From contig NZ_KE386569.1 of the NCBI RefSeq assembly GCF_000427625.1, forward strand, positions 249,376 through 313,375: a DNA stretch of 64,000 nucleotides, given 5' to 3'. The translations under genes were made by a program, and so were the position numbers. How positions within the stretch are numbered: position 1 is the first letter of the stretch; the number at the start of each line of letters is the position of its first letter. Below the pieces are notes generated by a model that worked only from the letters and a program-made list of their open reading frames with translations, was not told where the DNA came from and made no database searches. The DNA is from Methylobacter luteus IMV-B-3098 (GTDB taxonomy: Bacteria; Pseudomonadota; Gammaproteobacteria; Methylococcales; Methylomonadaceae). Shown here piece by piece: positions 23,907 to 33,079 of this stretch.

Positions 23907-24326
23907 TTATTGATTGGTTTTTGAGCCCGGCTGCTGCATTTTTTTATGATCTTTTTGCCATTGCCGACGATGTTCCATCAGCTGATCATGATGCGCTTTT
24001 AACAAATCCAACTGTTGTTTTTTAAGCTGTTCTTTTTTGGCGGGGTCTTTCTCTGCCAGAATCTTATCGGAAAGCTCGTGCATTAACAGCATATGGTCCT
24101 GAAAAGTCCGCATATGCAGATCTTTTTGCTCTTCGGACATGCCTCCCATCATGCCGCCCATGCCACCACCCATTTCACCCATGCCTCTACCCATTCCGCC
24201 CATGCCTCCACCCATTCTGTTCGTGCCCTGGGATTCGGGTTTATTTATCGGTTCGCCGGCGTAACTGACCATGCCATAAGAAATTAACAGAAAAAAAGCA
24301 GCCATCAATTGATTAAGATGTTTCAT
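23907..24326 (-). CDS. Met/Gly-rich periplasmic protein (possible metal-binding)
   Basis: 139 residues with a signal peptide (cleavage near SYAGEP). A central tract of ~27 residues is a GGM/GRM/GEM repeat (RMGGGMGGMGRGMGEMGGGM and onward), then a charged helix rich in Met, His and Lys (HMRTFQDHMLLMHELSD; HHDQLMEHRRQWQ). Met-rich tracts often coordinate copper; the helical C-terminus recalls Spy/CpxP-like periplasmic proteins. In a methanotroph copper handling would be apt, but this is inference. No copper genes adjoin. Confidence 0.65.
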   Translation of the reverse strand: MKHLNQLMAAFFLLISYGMVSYAGEPINKPESQGTNRMGGGMGGMGRGMGEMGGGMGGMMGGMSEEQKDLHMRTFQDHMLLMHELSDKILAEKDPAKKEQLKKQQLDLLKAHHDQLMEHRRQWQKDHKKMQQPGSKTNQ

Positions 24327-25091: not shown

Positions 25092-25312
25092 TATGCCTCC
25101 AGGGGATGAAGTATTTTATTAAAAGATAAGGCGCTGCTGGCTGACGGACGATCGCAATAAACGGACATCACGCAAAACGCCTTTTTACGTATGCTAACAC
25201 ACAGACATAGCTGTTTTTTGTGTGTATACCCAATATTCATCTTGATGGGATAGAAAATGGCACTCGCTTATCTGGTATTCATCCTAACTTTTCTCAAGAA
25301 ATGGAGATTATC

Positions 25313-26632
25313 ATGAAACGATATTGGATATACATGATGACAATTCCTCTACTGGTCATCTCCGTCAGTACGGCATTTTCTGATGACAAGCGGCAGGCAC
25401 TGATAAAGTTCGATAAGCAAATTAACAGGCAGGCTCAGCAAACGCTGGCCGATGGCAGTAAAATTTTTCGATACGATACCTTCGGCGACGAGGCCTTCTG
25501 GGGCGATACGCTGAAATTGCACCAGGCAATAAAAGGCGCTAAATTCGGCGGCGTAGGCCCGGGCGTGAGCCCGAAGACGGCGCTAGCGGTAGGTCTCAAG
25601 GTTGATGTCGATGCGCTTCCGGCAAACATCGTATCCAGCCTGAAGAGCGGCGGCGTGAACCTCGATGATCCGGCGGTCACAATTGAATTGCTGCGCCTCA
25701 ATGCCGTCGTTGGCGTCAAGGGCATCTTTGCCGGAAATGATCTGAGCTCAATTGGCATACAATGCGCACTCTGCCACTCCACGGTGGACAATTCACTGGC
25801 GCCCGGGGTTGGTCATCGGCTCGACGCCTGGGCCAATCGTGATCTCAACGTCGGCGCGATCATCGGCCTGGCTCCCGACCTCAGCGCGTTTACGACGCTG
25901 CTCGAAGTCGATGACAAGACCGTGCGGGACGTGCTGGCGTCCTGGGGCCCGGGAAAATTCGATGCTGAACTGGTTCTCGATGGCAAAGCCTTCCGCCCGG
26001 ACGGCAAATCGGCCGCGACGCTCATTCCTCCCGCGTTCGGCCTGGCGGGCGTCAATCTGCACACCTGGACCGGCTGGGGTTCCGTGACGCACTGGAATGC
26101 CTTTGTCGCTGTGCTGGAAATGCACGGGAAGGGCACGTTCTTCGATCCGCGCCTGAAAGACCCTGAGCAATTCCCGGTCGCCGCCAAAGCCGGTTTCGAC
26201 AACGTGCGCAACGATCCCGATCTCGTTAGCGCCAAATTGCCGGCGCTGCATTTCTATCAATTGGCGATTCCCGCGCCAATGGCACCGAAAGGCAGTTTCA
26301 ATCCATCCGCCGCAGCCAGCGGCAAACAGGTTTTCGAAGACAAAGGCCAATGCGCGACCTGCCATGTGCCGCCGACTTATAGCGAACCGGGGTGGAACAT
26401 GCACACACCGGAAGAGATCGGCATTGACGATTTCCAGGCCAACCGGTCACCGGACATGCGCTATCGGACTGCGCCGCTGAAGGGGCTGTGGACCCACACC
26501 AAAGGCGGTTTTTATCATGACGGGCGGTTTGCTACACTGCTCGATGTGGTAAATCATTACAACAGTCATTTAAAACTGGGGTTAACCGATCAGGAGAAAG
26601 CAGACCTGGTCGAGTATTTGAAATCGCTGTAA
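25313..26632 (+). CDS. Diheme c-type cytochrome (peroxidase/MauG-like C-terminal region), periplasmic
   Basis: 439 residues from ATG 25313 (TGGAGA upstream). Signal peptide ending at AFS. Two heme c sites: CALCH near residue 150 and CATCH near residue 346; the stretch after the second resembles the C-terminal domain of diheme cytochromes of the peroxidase/MauG group (APLKGLWTHTKGGFYHDGRFATLLDVVNHYN). The first half (SKIFRYDTFGDEAFW) is typical of a broad family of large periplasmic cytochromes. Electron partner unknown. Confidence 0.85.
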   Translation: MKRYWIYMMTIPLLVISVSTAFSDDKRQALIKFDKQINRQAQQTLADGSKIFRYDTFGDEAFWGDTLKLHQAIKGAKFGGVGPGVSPKTALAVGLKVDVDALPANIVSSLKSGGVNLDDPAVTIELLRLNAVVGVKGIFAGNDLSSIGIQCALCHSTVDNSLAPGVGHRLDAWANRDLNVGAIIGLAPDLSAFTTLLEVDDKTVRDVLASWGPGKFDAELVLDGKAFRPDGKSAATLIPPAFGLAGVNLHTWTGWGSVTHWNAFVAVLEMHGKGTFFDPRLKDPEQFPVAAKAGFDNVRNDPDLVSAKLPALHFYQLAIPAPMAPKGSFNPSAAASGKQVFEDKGQCATCHVPPTYSEPGWNMHTPEEIGIDDFQANRSPDMRYRTAPLKGLWTHTKGGFYHDGRFATLLDVVNHYNSHLKLGLTDQEKADLVEYLKSL

Positions 26633-26993: not shown

Positions 26994-27449
26994 TCAGGCG
27001 GACGATGAAGGATCTTCAGACAATGCTGACAGGTCGACTCTGACGCCGAAACGGGCCGCATCGGCCAGCGAGTATTTGTCCAGCACAGCCATGAATGCGC
27101 GCTGCGCCTCGTATAACATGGCCTTCAGAAAGCAGTCGCGGGTCAGGCGGCACTGATTGGACGGTGTATCGAAGCACTCCACCAGATTCATGTTGACTTC
27201 GGTCCTCCGTACTACTTCCCCGACCCCTATGGTATTCGCGGGTCGGGACAGCTGAATGCCGCCGCCCTTGCCCCGGGTCGTCATGATGAAGCCTTGATTG
27301 GCCAGGCTGTTCGCCACCTTGACCAGATGGTTGCGGGAAATTTGATGATACTCGGCAATTTCTGAAATGGTCGCCATGCCCGGTTCCGGCAAGCGGGCAA
27401 GATAAATCAGCAGGCGCAGTGAATAATCAGTGAATTGCGTAAGCTGCAT
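26994..27449 (-). CDS. nsrR: NsrR, Rrf2-family nitric-oxide-sensing repressor
   Basis: 151 residues. Rrf2 winged-helix start (MQLTQFTDYSLRLLIYLA) with recognition region EYHQISRNHLVKVANSLANQGFI, the wing RGKGGGIQLSRP, and the three-cysteine cluster ECFDTPSNQCRLTRDC that carries the NO-sensitive Fe-S cluster. AAGGAGCA lies before the ATG. It is divergent from the hemoglobin/reductase pair, and two NsrR-like palindromes lie in the shared region, so autoregulation and control of that pair are likely. Confidence 0.92.
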   Translation of the reverse strand: MQLTQFTDYSLRLLIYLARLPEPGMATISEIAEYHQISRNHLVKVANSLANQGFIMTTRGKGGGIQLSRPANTIGVGEVVRRTEVNMNLVECFDTPSNQCRLTRDCFLKAMLYEAQRAFMAVLDKYSLADAARFGVRVDLSALSEDPSSSA

Positions 27450-27533
27450 GTTTGATGCTCCTTAAAATCAGCCTGCGTTTCAAGCAGGGCTTAAAAAATA
27501 AAAGATAGGGCTTGACGATTTTACTACCTGGAA

Positions 27534-27560
27534 ATAAGATGCATGTTAAATACATCTTAT
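27534..27560. promoter_or_regulatory. NsrR-like operator 1
   Basis: ATAAGATGCATGT then TAAATACATCTTAT: a near-perfect palindrome of the AAGATGCATTT/AAATGCATCTT type known for NsrR, 85 bases 5' of the nsrR start and 84 bases 5' of the globin start. Confidence 0.8.
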
Positions 27561-27601
27561 AGTTACGCCTTATCACTGCCCCCTCTTGGGGCGTATCTTT
27601 T

Positions 27602-27623
27602 AAGATGTATTTTAAACACCTTT
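27602..27623. promoter_or_regulatory. NsrR-like operator 2 (weaker)
   Basis: AAGATGTATTTTAAACACCTTT: left half matches the NsrR half-site well, right half is degenerate. It lies 21 bases 5' of the globin start, suitable for repression. Confidence 0.6.
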
Positions 27624-27644
27624 TTAATTGAACTGGAGAAAAAT

Positions 27645-28019
27645 ATGTCGCAACAAGAGTCCTTGTACGAAAAATTAGGTGGCGAAGCCGCCGTTAATGC
27701 TGCCGTTGATATTTTTTACCGCAAGGTATTGAGCGATGACCGCATCAGTTCCTTCTTCGAGGACGTGGATATGGAGAAGCAGGCCGCGAAACAAAAAGCA
27801 TTCCTGACCATGGCCTTCGGCGGGCCGCACAATTACAGCGGTCTCGATATGCGCGCCGGCCATGCCCATCTGGTCGAGCGCGGCCTGGATGATACGCATG
27901 TCGATGCGGTGATTGAAAACCTCGCGGCGACCCTCCGCGAGCTGGGCGTGCAAGAGGCTCTGATCAATCAGGTTGCCGCTATCGCCGAGAGCACGCGAAA
28001 CGACGTGCTGGGCCGTTAA
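27645..28019 (+). CDS. Truncated hemoglobin, group I (2/2 globin)
   Basis: 124 residues from ATG 27645 with CTGGAGAA upstream. Contains SLYEKLGGEAAVNAAVDIFYRKVLSD, DVDMEKQAAKQKAFLTMAFGGPHNYSG and the proximal histidine in DMRAGHAHLVERGLDD: group I truncated hemoglobin order. Such globins turn NO and O2 into nitrate when reduced. The next gene is a dedicated-looking reductase, and NsrR-like operators lie upstream, so an NO-dioxygenase function is inferred. Confidence 0.92.
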   Translation: MSQQESLYEKLGGEAAVNAAVDIFYRKVLSDDRISSFFEDVDMEKQAAKQKAFLTMAFGGPHNYSGLDMRAGHAHLVERGLDDTHVDAVIENLAATLRELGVQEALINQVAAIAESTRNDVLGR

Positions 28020-28050
28020 TTCTTTATTTCAGAAATACAGGTACGCTGCC

Positions 28051-29031
28051 ATGGTGACTATTCGTTATGCAAAAGACAACTTCGAATTGGGCGAGAACCA
28101 ATCTGTTCTGGAGTGTTTGACCAGTCGCGGCGTGCCCGTTCCTTTTTCCTGCCGCAGCGGAGCCTGCCAGACCTGCCTGATGCGTGCCACTGTCGGGACG
28201 CCTCCCGAAATTTCGCAGCAAGGATTGAAGGATAGCCTCAAACTCCAGAACTATTTTCTCGCTTGCGTTTGTCATCCCACTTCAGATCTTGATGTCGCTC
28301 TGCCGGACGATAAGGATATTCAGGCGGCTGTTCCCGCTACCGTCAAAAGTCTGAAACTGCTCAATTCAGAAATCATGCATGTCACGCTCGAATGTCATGT
28401 GCCCATCGATTACAGAGCCGGGCAGTTCATCAACCTGTTTCAGGACCCGTCGCTGGGCCGCAGTTACTCACTCGCCAGCGTGCCGCATGAAGATGATCAC
28501 CTTCACCTCCATGTTCGCCGCCTGCCGCAGGGCAGGGTCAGCGGCTGGATACATGAGGAACTGCGTCCGGGCGAGACGGTCGAGGTTCGCGGTCCCGCCG
28601 GCGACTGCTTTTACACGCCCGGCAATGCCGAACAGGGCATGGTTCTGATCGGTACGGGCTCCGGGCTTGCGCCGCTTTACGGCATTATCCGCGATGCCCT
28701 TAGTCAGGGTCACACCGGCCCTATTCGATTATTTCACGGCAGCCGCGACCTGAACGGAGTCTATCTGACCGGGGAGCTGCGCGATCTGGTCAGGCAATAT
28801 TCGAATTTCGATTACGTGCCGTGCCTGTCCGGCGGAGATGTGCCGCACGGCTTTGCCGCGGGACGCGCCCATGACGTGGCTTTTCAGCAGATACCCGATC
28901 TCAAGAACTGGCGCCTGTTTCTCTGCGGGCATCCAGAAATGGTCAAGACAGCCAAAAAGAAAGCCTTTCTGGCGGGCGCCTCCATGAAGGATATCTATGC
29001 CGACGCCTTCAATGTCAGCCAGTCTTCCTGA
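28051..29031 (+). CDS. Ferredoxin-FAD-NAD reductase partner of the truncated hemoglobin
   Basis: 326 residues from ATG 28051. N-terminal plant-type 2Fe-2S domain (FSCRSGACQTCLM, last cysteine in ACVC), then an FNR-like FAD domain (GQFINLFQDPSLGRSYSLAS) and an NAD domain (LIGTGSGLAPLYGII; FLCGHPEMVKTAK). The order is as in MmoC, benzoate-dioxygenase and phenol-hydroxylase reductases. It begins 31 bases after the globin stop, so one operon. It should pass electrons from NAD(P)H through FAD and 2Fe-2S to a partner, most simply the globin. A reductase for another oxygenase is the alternative. Confidence 0.88.
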   Translation: MVTIRYAKDNFELGENQSVLECLTSRGVPVPFSCRSGACQTCLMRATVGTPPEISQQGLKDSLKLQNYFLACVCHPTSDLDVALPDDKDIQAAVPATVKSLKLLNSEIMHVTLECHVPIDYRAGQFINLFQDPSLGRSYSLASVPHEDDHLHLHVRRLPQGRVSGWIHEELRPGETVEVRGPAGDCFYTPGNAEQGMVLIGTGSGLAPLYGIIRDALSQGHTGPIRLFHGSRDLNGVYLTGELRDLVRQYSNFDYVPCLSGGDVPHGFAAGRAHDVAFQQIPDLKNWRLFLCGHPEMVKTAKKKAFLAGASMKDIYADAFNVSQSS

Positions 29032-31321: not shown

Positions 31322-31711
31322 ATGAGCAAATCACCCGGCCACCAAAAATGGCCCAACCATAAAGTCCAGGAAAAACCCATTAATCAAAGAGTTCAGGTCG
31401 AGATCAACGGCGAGGTGGTCGCAGACTCCAGCGATGTCGTTCAAGTCGACGAAGACCAGCATCCGCCTCGCTACTATTTTCCCCGCTCCGACGTCAAGAT
31501 GGACAAGCTGGAGCGATCGGATACCACGACCGAATGCCCGTTCAAAGGCTCCGCGCACTATTATCATCTCAATCTGGGCGGCCAGACATTCGAGGATGCG
31601 GTCTGGACCTATGAGGATCCTTATGAAGAGCATCGTGCACTGAAGGACAGGATCGCCTTTTATGATGACAAATTTCAGGCCATTCATATTGAGATAGAGG
31701 CAAAAGGATAA
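31322..31711 (+). CDS. DUF427-domain protein
   Basis: 129 residues. [48 protein letters not shown] and [27 protein letters not shown] form the complete DUF427 pattern. Function unsettled in the family. AGGAGGT lies 7 bases upstream. It follows the VOC gene by ~60 bases on the same strand. Confidence 0.88.
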
Positions 31712-32032: not shown

Positions 32033-33079
32033 ATGACCGATGCCGCCCTCAGTGAATCTGTTCAAAATTATTACGGGGAGGTGCTTAAATCCAGTCAGGA
32101 TTTAAAGACCAGCGCCTGTTGCACGCTTGACGCGATGCCTGGGCATTTGCGTCCGTTTCTCGCCGATCTGCACCCGGAAGTGGTGGCCCGCTTCTACGGT
32201 TGCGGTTCGCCGTTGCCTCCAGCGCTTGAAGGCCGTACCGTATTGGACCTGGGGTGCGGTTCGGGACGTGATTGTTACTTGCTGTCCCGGTTGGTCGGTG
32301 AATCGGGACGGGTCATCGGTGTCGATATGACGCAAGCTCAGCTTGATGTCGCCAGGCGTCATTGCGACTGGCATGCCGAACGGTATGGTTATGCGTGCTC
32401 CAATGTCGAATTCCTGCAGGGGCGCATCGAGGATCTCGCCTCGATCGGCATTGCCGACAATTCCATTGATGTTGTCGTGTCGAATTGCGTCATCAATCTG
32501 TCGCCCGATAAAAAGCAGGTATTGGCGGAAGTTTTCCGCGTGCTCAAGCCCGGCGGCGAACTCTACTTTTCCGATGTCTATGCCGACCGGCGTATCCCTG
32601 CTGCGCTCAGACAGGACCCGGTGCTGCTGGGCGAATGTCTGGGCGGCGCCCTGTATGGGGAGGATTTCCGCCGCATCATGCACGACCTGGGCTGTCCTGA
32701 TGTCCGCACCGTCAAGGGCAATCCGATCACGCTGGGCGATCCGGAGGTCTTGGCCAAAATCGGCATGGTCAATTTCCGCTCGGTGACGGTCAGGGCTTTC
32801 AAAATGCCCTTGGAAGACCGTTGCGAGGATTTCGGGCAGGTCGCCGTCTATAAAGGCACATTGCCCGAATCGCCCCACTTTTTTGATTTGGACGATCACC
32901 ATCATTTTGAAACCGGCCGGCCCCTGCGCGTCTGCGGCAATACCGCCGACATGCTCGGCATGAGCCGCTATGCCGAACATTTTGAAATCTGGGGCGATAA
33001 ATCCACGCATTTCGGTTTGTTCGATTGCGCGCCGCCCAACAAAAGCCTGTCCGTTGAATCCGGAGCGGCCTGTTGTTAA
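32033..33079 (+). CDS. arsM: Arsenite S-adenosylmethionine methyltransferase ArsM
   Basis: 348 residues. SAM motif VLDLGCGSGRDCYLLS (residues ~70-85), VIGVDMT, and the As(III)-binding cysteines: Cys152 (VVSNCVINL) and Cys202 (LLGECLGGALY), spaced 50 as in characterised ArsM, with Cys29/30 and Cys57 as the N-terminal pair. The C-terminal CEDFGQVAVYKGTLPESPHFFDLDDHH is also typical. It turns arsenite into methylated arsenicals in the cytoplasm. No arsR or arsB lies beside it, so it appears to be a solo gene. The tail ends GAACC. Confidence 0.93.
   Translation: MTDAALSESVQNYYGEVLKSSQDLKTSACCTLDAMPGHLRPFLADLHPEVVARFYGCGSPLPPALEGRTVLDLGCGSGRDCYLLSRLVGESGRVIGVDMTQAQLDVARRHCDWHAERYGYACSNVEFLQGRIEDLASIGIADNSIDVVVSNCVINLSPDKKQVLAEVFRVLKPGGELYFSDVYADRRIPAALRQDPVLLGECLGGALYGEDFRRIMHDLGCPDVRTVKGNPITLGDPEVLAKIGMVNFRSVTVRAFKMPLEDRCEDFGQVAVYKGTLPESPHFFDLDDHHHFETGRPLRVCGNTADMLGMSRYAEHFEIWGDKSTHFGLFDCAPPNKSLSVESGAACC

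Follow-up and report, generated by a model that had tools for sequence, protein, structure and literature searches.

A Truncated Globin and a 2Fe-2S/FAD Reductase Predicted to Form a Two-Protein NO Dioxygenase under NsrR in Methylobacter luteus

Organization of the Locus

The window, that is, the whole stretch of 64,000 nucleotides of Methylobacter luteus IMV-B-3098 that was analysed and whose positions are used here, carries three genes arranged around one intergenic region. On the minus strand there is an nsrR-like gene of the Rrf2 repressor family (26994-27449; Pfam Rrf2, 4e-35), divergent from a plus-strand gene for a group I truncated globin of 124 amino acids (27645-28019; Pfam Bac_globin), with its ATG at 27645, its stop at 28019, and a GGAG ribosome-binding site at 27635-27638 which is kept in an alignment of 16 related promoters. 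It is followed on the plus strand by the gene of a 2Fe-2S/FAD/NAD reductase of 326 amino acids (28051-29031, ATG at 28051; Pfam and NCBIfam). The three genes in this order, with two palindromes between them, one strong and one weaker, had been described in a first-pass annotation whose account agrees with the sequence. The spacing of 31 nt between the globin stop and the reductase ATG was recounted with the same result, and the two proteins are encoded by separate genes and not as a single Hmp-like chain.

The surroundings of the locus were also recorded. Upstream of nsrR lies a c-type cytochrome gene (25310-26632) whose product has weak matches to cytochrome c peroxidase/MauG-like proteins. 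A small, apparently secreted protein that has a stretch rich in Gly and Met and may bind metal is encoded at 23907-24326. A relative of ArsM-like arsenite methyltransferases is encoded at 32033-33079 (193.6 bits against the PRK11873 cut-off of 263), near a DUF427 protein at 31322-31711.

The top NCBIfam equivalog for the divergent Rrf2 protein was NsrR (PRK11014), with 144.1 bits, under the cut-off of 182; the RirA model gave 112.6 bits against a cut-off of 193. Residues C92, C100, and C106, together with Asp8, align with the solved NsrR 5n07, which we take to be the Streptomyces protein, where the aligned three cysteines and Asp8 presumably hold the Fe-S cluster. The earlier identification of an nsrR with a three-cysteine cluster is in this way supported by the family assignment and by the cysteines, with a score that stays below the NsrR cut-off.

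NsrR Boxes and Promoter

The published NsrR consensus is gATGyAT-N5-ATrCATc (Rodionov 2005, PMC1274295). Box 1, the palindrome AAGATGCATGTTAAATACATCTT (27536-27558, core 27538-27556), has 0 mismatches to it and is its only perfect match in the genome of 5,029,135 bases (5.03 Mb), while the weaker, NsrR-like box 2, AAGATGTATTTTAAACACCTTTT (27602-27624), has 3 mismatches to the core. When up to 2 mismatches were allowed, 43 sites were found in the genome versus 12 for a reversed control pattern. Besides the perfect box 1 these comprise 3 sites with one mismatch and 39 with two, of which L195 and L201 had their surroundings inspected. Translated open reading frames near the 3 one-mismatch sites, read by eye and without family search, had no obvious NO link; a wider NsrR regulon in this genome was for this reason set aside, and the globin-reductase pair looks like the sole strong NsrR target in it.

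A sigma-70-like promoter, TTGACG-17-TAAGAT, was recognized on the plus strand at 27512-27540 by its match to the consensus, its -10 element overlapping box 1. As a class, promoter-like matches were not above chance (2 found, one of them on the plus strand, versus 1.5 expected). Box 1, box 2, and the TAAGAT block are all conserved across the 16 aligned related promoters, in which TTGAC and TAAGAT could be seen by eye, with TTGAC shifted in one of them (L049); in promoters of the Methylobacter type, box 1 lies about 95-126 nt upstream of the globin match. Taken alone, box 2 is at chance level, since 8 matches with up to 3 mismatches were present in the window versus 12.1 expected. Of the two palindromes proposed initially as NsrR sites, the first is thus a unique perfect match, while the second can only be called conserved. 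A terminator-like leader hairpin between the boxes (27577-27593) was considered and set aside because this stretch is not conserved in the promoter alignment.

The scan for NsrR motifs that had been suggested along with the first-pass annotation was extended to relatives by comparing 48 nsrR/globin intergenic regions with 40 adjoining genes for SufR-like regulators (see below), after dropping repeats and regions under 40 nt. At least 12 of the 14 core positions were matched in 39 of the 48 nsrR regions, versus 0.16 expected from shuffles; these 48 are not independent, because many come from close relatives. The best NsrR-core score in the SufR-like set was 10, with 0 of 40 above it. At phylum level, outside the class, the published box was mostly unrecognizable despite the adjacent nsrR, with cores mostly scoring 8-11; the exceptions were 13 in L227 and 12 in L220 and L222. 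Predicted control of the pair by NsrR is, on these motif data, well supported.

The Globin and Its Heme Pocket

The solved structure nearest to the globin was the group 1 truncated hemoglobin 3aq5 (2.9e-36), followed by the cyanoglobins 1s69 and 2hz2, in agreement with the earlier call of a group I 2/2 globin; we take the sources of these three to be Tetrahymena and Synechocystis. Also among the PDB matches was 4xdi (1.5e-28), the structure of Chlamydomonas THB1, a globin that can be reduced by nitrate reductase. By alignment to cyanoglobin, with the customary topological numbering, the pocket is formed by TyrB10 (Y25), GlnE7 (Q46), LysE10 (K49), GlnE11 (Q50), and HisF8 (H73). TyrB10, GlnE7, and GlnE11 make up an oxygen-stabilizing pocket. 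At the position aligned with LysE10, cyanoglobin 1s69 has His and 3aq5 has Gln.

The conservation of these positions was surveyed in 165 distinct globins obtained from 205 matches (loci L001-L187), excluding identical sequences and those under 90 amino acids. TyrB10, GlnE7, LysE10, and HisF8 are present in 129 of the 129 distinct globins with a downstream reductase, and GlnE11 in 128. LysE10 is likewise present in 23 of the 27 globins scored as being without reductase, from which it follows that it marks the globin lineage rather than the pairing itself.

In Chlamydomonas THB1 a lysine at E10 binds the heme on the distal side, and NO dioxygenase activity has been described (PMC11904497, PMC4304232); an endogenous six-coordinate state is reported to ease electron transfer (PMC11904497). 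A title cited within PMC3820574 links the B10-E7-E11 network of a Tetrahymena globin with NO detoxification. By analogy with THB1, the heme iron of the present globin is probably bound by LysE10 in the resting protein, giving a His-Lys six-coordinate state.

The Reductase

The Pfam domains of the reductase follow the order Fer2 - FAD_binding_6 - NAD_binding_1, which is the MmoC/BenC arrangement and bears out the earlier call of a 2Fe-2S/FAD/NAD reductase. Its motifs are Cys34-39-42-72, R137-S-Y-S140, G203-x-G-x-x-P208, and C292-G293, to which we assign the customary cofactor roles by assumption. In 124 distinct pairs, out of 148 within the length limits, the four cluster cysteines, R137, Y139, S140, and G293 were present in 124 of 124 reductases and C292 in 123. 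The top NCBIfam matches were PRK05713, MmoC, an NAD(P)H-flavin reductase, and BenC, all far below their cut-offs (189 bits versus 338 for PRK05713; 136 versus 500 and 118 versus 430 for MmoC/BenC). The Hmp model reached 67.7 bits against a cut-off of 432 and covered the reductase part only.

The genes flanking the pair were compared with Pfam (97 open reading frames from 19 loci). Regular proximity of the reductase to an oxygenase hydroxylase had been named at the outset as evidence against a split Hmp; none appeared in the best 25 of the 108 families found, and on this part of the families an oxygenase was provisionally set aside as the partner of the reductase. The commonest flanking families were COX1 (7), cytochrome c (7), MOSC (6), and HPP (5).

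Several neighbors recur. Downstream of the reductase, L003, L004, L007, L012, L017, and L072 have a gene for a MOSC-domain protein, which in L023 and L025 is found close to the cassette. L023, L024, L025, L028, L030, and L076 encode, next to the cassette, a membrane protein of the HPP family, at some of these loci immediately following the reductase and at some carrying CBS domains. Efflux genes of the HlyD/CusB type are located upstream of nsrR in L003, L007, L014, and L017.

Conservation of the Pair

The pairing, whose confinement to this genome was likewise to count against a split Hmp in the first-pass annotation, was found to be widespread. At order level, in Methylococcales, we compared the first 123 globin matches listed with the 150 reductase matches listed. 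For 84 of the 123, the listed reductases include one on the same strand no more than 600 nt further downstream, the median match-to-match gap being 36 nt; one of these 84 reductases (G061) has an internal stop. Inspection of 38 of the remaining 39 loci revealed a near-full-length reductase match downstream in 29, while L121 and L137 are cut by contig ends, L143 has the reductase in two pieces, and L110 has fragments only. Altogether, 117 of the 123 globin matches examined among those listed have a reductase match directly downstream, 113 of them near full length. The globins without reductase are those of L108, L109, L111, L131, and L135 and the second globin of G145 (L072); one of these six lies 452 nt from a contig end, and those of L108 and L111 sit upstream of NOR-cluster genes.

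The pair also reaches other Gammaproteobacteria and goes beyond the class. At class level, a reductase was found downstream in 48 of 67 distinct globin places and in none of the other 19, where L082 = L152 and L094 = L150 were counted once and seven further listed rows were left out; the places without it hold tandem two-domain globins or lone globins, and several of these belong to the most divergent kind. At phylum level, 29 loci were returned for 51 genomes with a match, and 23 of them have the downstream reductase; three of the 6 without it are at contig ends. The reverse scan, starting from the reductase in named genomes, gave 31 loci with a globin match just upstream in 30, L027 being the exception. 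Named-genome carriers of the pair include Methylobacter, Methylovulum, Methylomonas, Methylolobus, Sulfuriferula, a Gallionellales MAG, and a Blastocatellia MAG. M. tundripaludum SV96, a laboratory Methylobacter, has the same cassette (L012).

No globin-reductase fusion turned up in the listed lengths of open frames. The candidate, a frame of 616 amino acids in G892, arises by spurious read-through ahead of an ordinary globin, and the reductase lies in another frame.

Other globin arrangements were observed. Tandem two-domain group I globins, in one frame of about 270-300 amino acids, occur at class level in L081, L082 (= L152), L094 (= L150), L148, L149, L151, L154, and L155, and no reductase was detected downstream of them in the stretch covered. 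At phylum level, the reductase is preceded by two or three globin genes in tandem in L205, L207-L211, L214-L216, L223, L226-L228, and L230; at these multi-globin loci nsrR is divergent and the published NsrR box mostly unrecognizable.

A Second Cassette with a SufR-Like Regulator

A paralogous pair is present elsewhere in the same genome (C1:1269743-1271098), with a globin 71% and a reductase 52% identical to those of the window. It is divergent from the gene of a regulator of the winged-helix type, for which SufR was the top NCBIfam model (76.6 versus a cut-off of 178.8) and whose four cysteines are kept in 10 of 10 relatives. The best NsrR-like site at this cassette matched 14 of the 22 positions of the long consensus and was taken as absence of the box. 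Downstream, on the same strand, follow the gene of a small protein without assignment and those of a cytochrome c resembling NorC and of NorB, the last matching NO reductase subunit B (3o0r, 6e-98). Genes of this NorB cluster were found within the stretch examined in 7 of 22 named-genome loci, and NnrS-like genes are near the cassette in L020 and L033. In several loci of the Methylobacter type (L004, L005, L008, L009, L011, L012, L075) the two cassettes are close together and convergent.

A quick tree of 124 reductase sequences, with several long branches, placed the 36 SufR-linked reductases in one set of 39 rows, which also holds one nsrR-linked and two unassigned rows. On this tree, 2 changes between nsrR and sufR linkage suffice.

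Near-Absence of Hmp and the NO Context

Methanotrophs are exposed to NO both through their own hydroxylamine chemistry and through neighbors that denitrify. Hmp was found above the cut-off in 1 of 121 Methylococcales genomes, and the Escherichia coli, Bacillus subtilis, and Corynebacterium glutamicum controls were detected; in G004 the match of the Hmp model is to the reductase part only. Set against this, the globin is present in 261 of 301 genomes (E ≤ 1e-3) and the reductase in 217 of 301 (E ≤ 1e-50). In the genome of M. luteus, 0 of 9 matches to Hmp were over the cut-off. For NO at low oxygen this genome possesses two Hcp genes together with a cNOR-like cluster, and nothing in it was over the cut-off for canonical NirK. 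In a Methyloprofundus, a group I globin is described among the ten most transcribed genes (PMC8788690).

Proposed Function

Taking into account the gene order and its conservation, the NsrR boxes, the cofactor and heme-pocket residues, and the near-absence of Hmp, we propose that the pair is a two-protein, NO-inducible NO dioxygenase under NsrR. From the sequence evidence we would give this reading a probability of about 0.8, and the pair probably does, as two proteins, the NO-destroying job of flavohemoglobin. NsrR bound to box 1 over the -10 element, and to box 2 in the leader, would block transcription; NO would damage its Fe-S cluster and derepress the operon. The ferrous-oxy heme of the truncated globin would then turn NO into nitrate and be left ferric, and the oxidoreductase, presumably using NADH and not NADPH, would re-reduce it through FAD and the [2Fe-2S] domain, by electron transfer between two chains. 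Ligation by LysE10 at rest may favor the one-electron reduction, with O2 afterwards displacing the lysine.

Several observations count against this proposal: the NsrR score under the curated cut-off, the globins without reductase, the reductase without a detected globin (L027), the lack of a fusion in the listed open frames, the mostly unrecognizable NsrR box at phylum-level loci outside the class, and the presence of LysE10 in most globins scored as being without reductase. The reductase could also serve neighboring MOSC, HPP, or NOR proteins.

The vicinity of norC/norB to cassette 2 and to several relatives would also fit a pair that chiefly reduces NO to N2O under anaerobic or micro-oxic conditions, or that acts as a denitrosylase, together with the neighboring cNOR. 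The TyrB10/GlnE7/GlnE11 pocket, as an oxygen-stabilizing one, speaks against this. The two Hcp genes agree with it, as does the description of a Methylobacter that answers hypoxia via Hcp/Hcr (PMC6977074); however, Hcp and the cNOR-like cluster already cover low-oxygen NO in a genome where the oxic niche has no Hmp, and we regard an NO-reducing pair as unlikely.

It is still less probable that the true partner of the reductase is MOSC, the HPP membrane protein, or NorCB, with the globin as a passive binder of NO or O2 kept reduced by general cell reductants. MOSC (6), HPP (5), and COX1/NorB (7) do stand among the 97 flanking frames, and the reductase is missing beside some globins; nevertheless, the globin is its constant neighbor in the 117 of 123 order-level matches among those listed, and the scanned neighbors of the cassette in the window include no MOSC, HPP, or NorCB. 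A globin supplying O2 to methane monooxygenase or to hypoxic respiration, the reductase merely undoing autoxidation, is very improbable: group II/III truncated hemoglobins are thought to carry O2 to methane monooxygenase (PMC11102522), but the NsrR box and the cNOR neighbors point to NO, and the pair occurs outside methanotrophs, for example, in Sulfuriferula and in the Gallionellales and Blastocatellia MAGs.

Returning to the two-protein NO dioxygenase, a broader proposal can be made tentatively, to which we give somewhat less than even odds. The LysE10 globin and the [2Fe-2S]-FAD reductase might constitute a second general class of bacterial NO dioxygenase, which would replace Hmp across Methylococcales and be common in other Gammaproteobacteria, and in which a distal-lysine switch would gate the entry of electrons from the partner. 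The module would be placed beside NsrR or SufR-like four-cysteine regulators of Fe-S type, with some copies running into cNOR, for side-by-side oxic and anoxic removal of NO.

If the pair is an NO dioxygenase, the missing enzyme would be named for an order almost devoid of flavohemoglobin, and many truncated hemoglobins without a known physiological reductant would gain a native partner that can be tested, which is a long-standing gap. It may also bear on the high transcription of the group I globin in Methyloprofundus, if that gene belongs to this cassette.

Comparison with Known Systems

The domain arrangement in Hmp comprises a 3/3 globin domain and no 2Fe-2S domain. It resembles the present system in uniting globin and FAD/NAD reductase and differs in that these form one chain. 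The initial description as a split Hmp holds as an analogy; literally it does not, given that the globin is truncated and not 3/3, that the 2Fe-2S domain is additional, and that the Hmp model scores 67.7 against 432. The reductase aligns over nearly its whole length with the MmoC/BenC-type oxygenase reductases and with PRK05713, and differs from them in scores far under the curated cut-offs and in flanks without a hydroxylase in the best 25 of 108 families.

We know of no bacterial NsrR operon for THB1 and other group I truncated globins. Chlamydomonas THB1 is alike in being a group I truncated globin with LysE10 (PMC11904497, PMC4304232). In Bradyrhizobium japonicum, Bjgb and Flp, encoded in one operon, are described, with mutant evidence, as two proteins that jointly detoxify NO (PMC4724949); they share with our pair the separation of globin and flavoprotein, but Bjgb, which has a single globin domain, is homologous to the heme domain of Hmp, and the operon is under NasS-NasT, for nitrate assimilation, and not under NsrR.

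Another close system is the glbN-lpg2536 operon of Legionella pneumophila. In the comparative analysis where Hmp is given as the most conserved NsrR target, this operon is the sole predicted target in its genome and is suggested to oxidize NO as Hmp does (PMC1274295), and Gardner 2012 (PMC3820574) read it as indicating that FNR-like proteins are common partners of truncated globins. As far as the published description goes, both systems have a cyanoglobin-type globin and a putative ferredoxin reductase in tandem, an NsrR site, and a gammaproteobacterial genome without hmp. The Legionella genome is described there as lacking hcp, dnrN, and nnrS, unlike the present one, with two Hcp genes, the cNOR-like cluster, and a second, SufR-like-linked cassette. 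A system of this kind was thus predicted twenty years ago, and the idea is not new, being older (Rodionov 2005) than the first-pass annotation implies. In the open-access literature searched, no description was found of the methanotroph operon, the SufR-like variant, or the bacterial LysE10 signature, and by term count the word globin does not occur in the main text of the work on Methylobacter hypoxia (PMC6977074). With respect to the Legionella prediction, what is added here is the breadth of the pair, the near-absence of Hmp in the order, a second regulator with cNOR, and LysE10, which offers a testable His-Lys heme chemistry.
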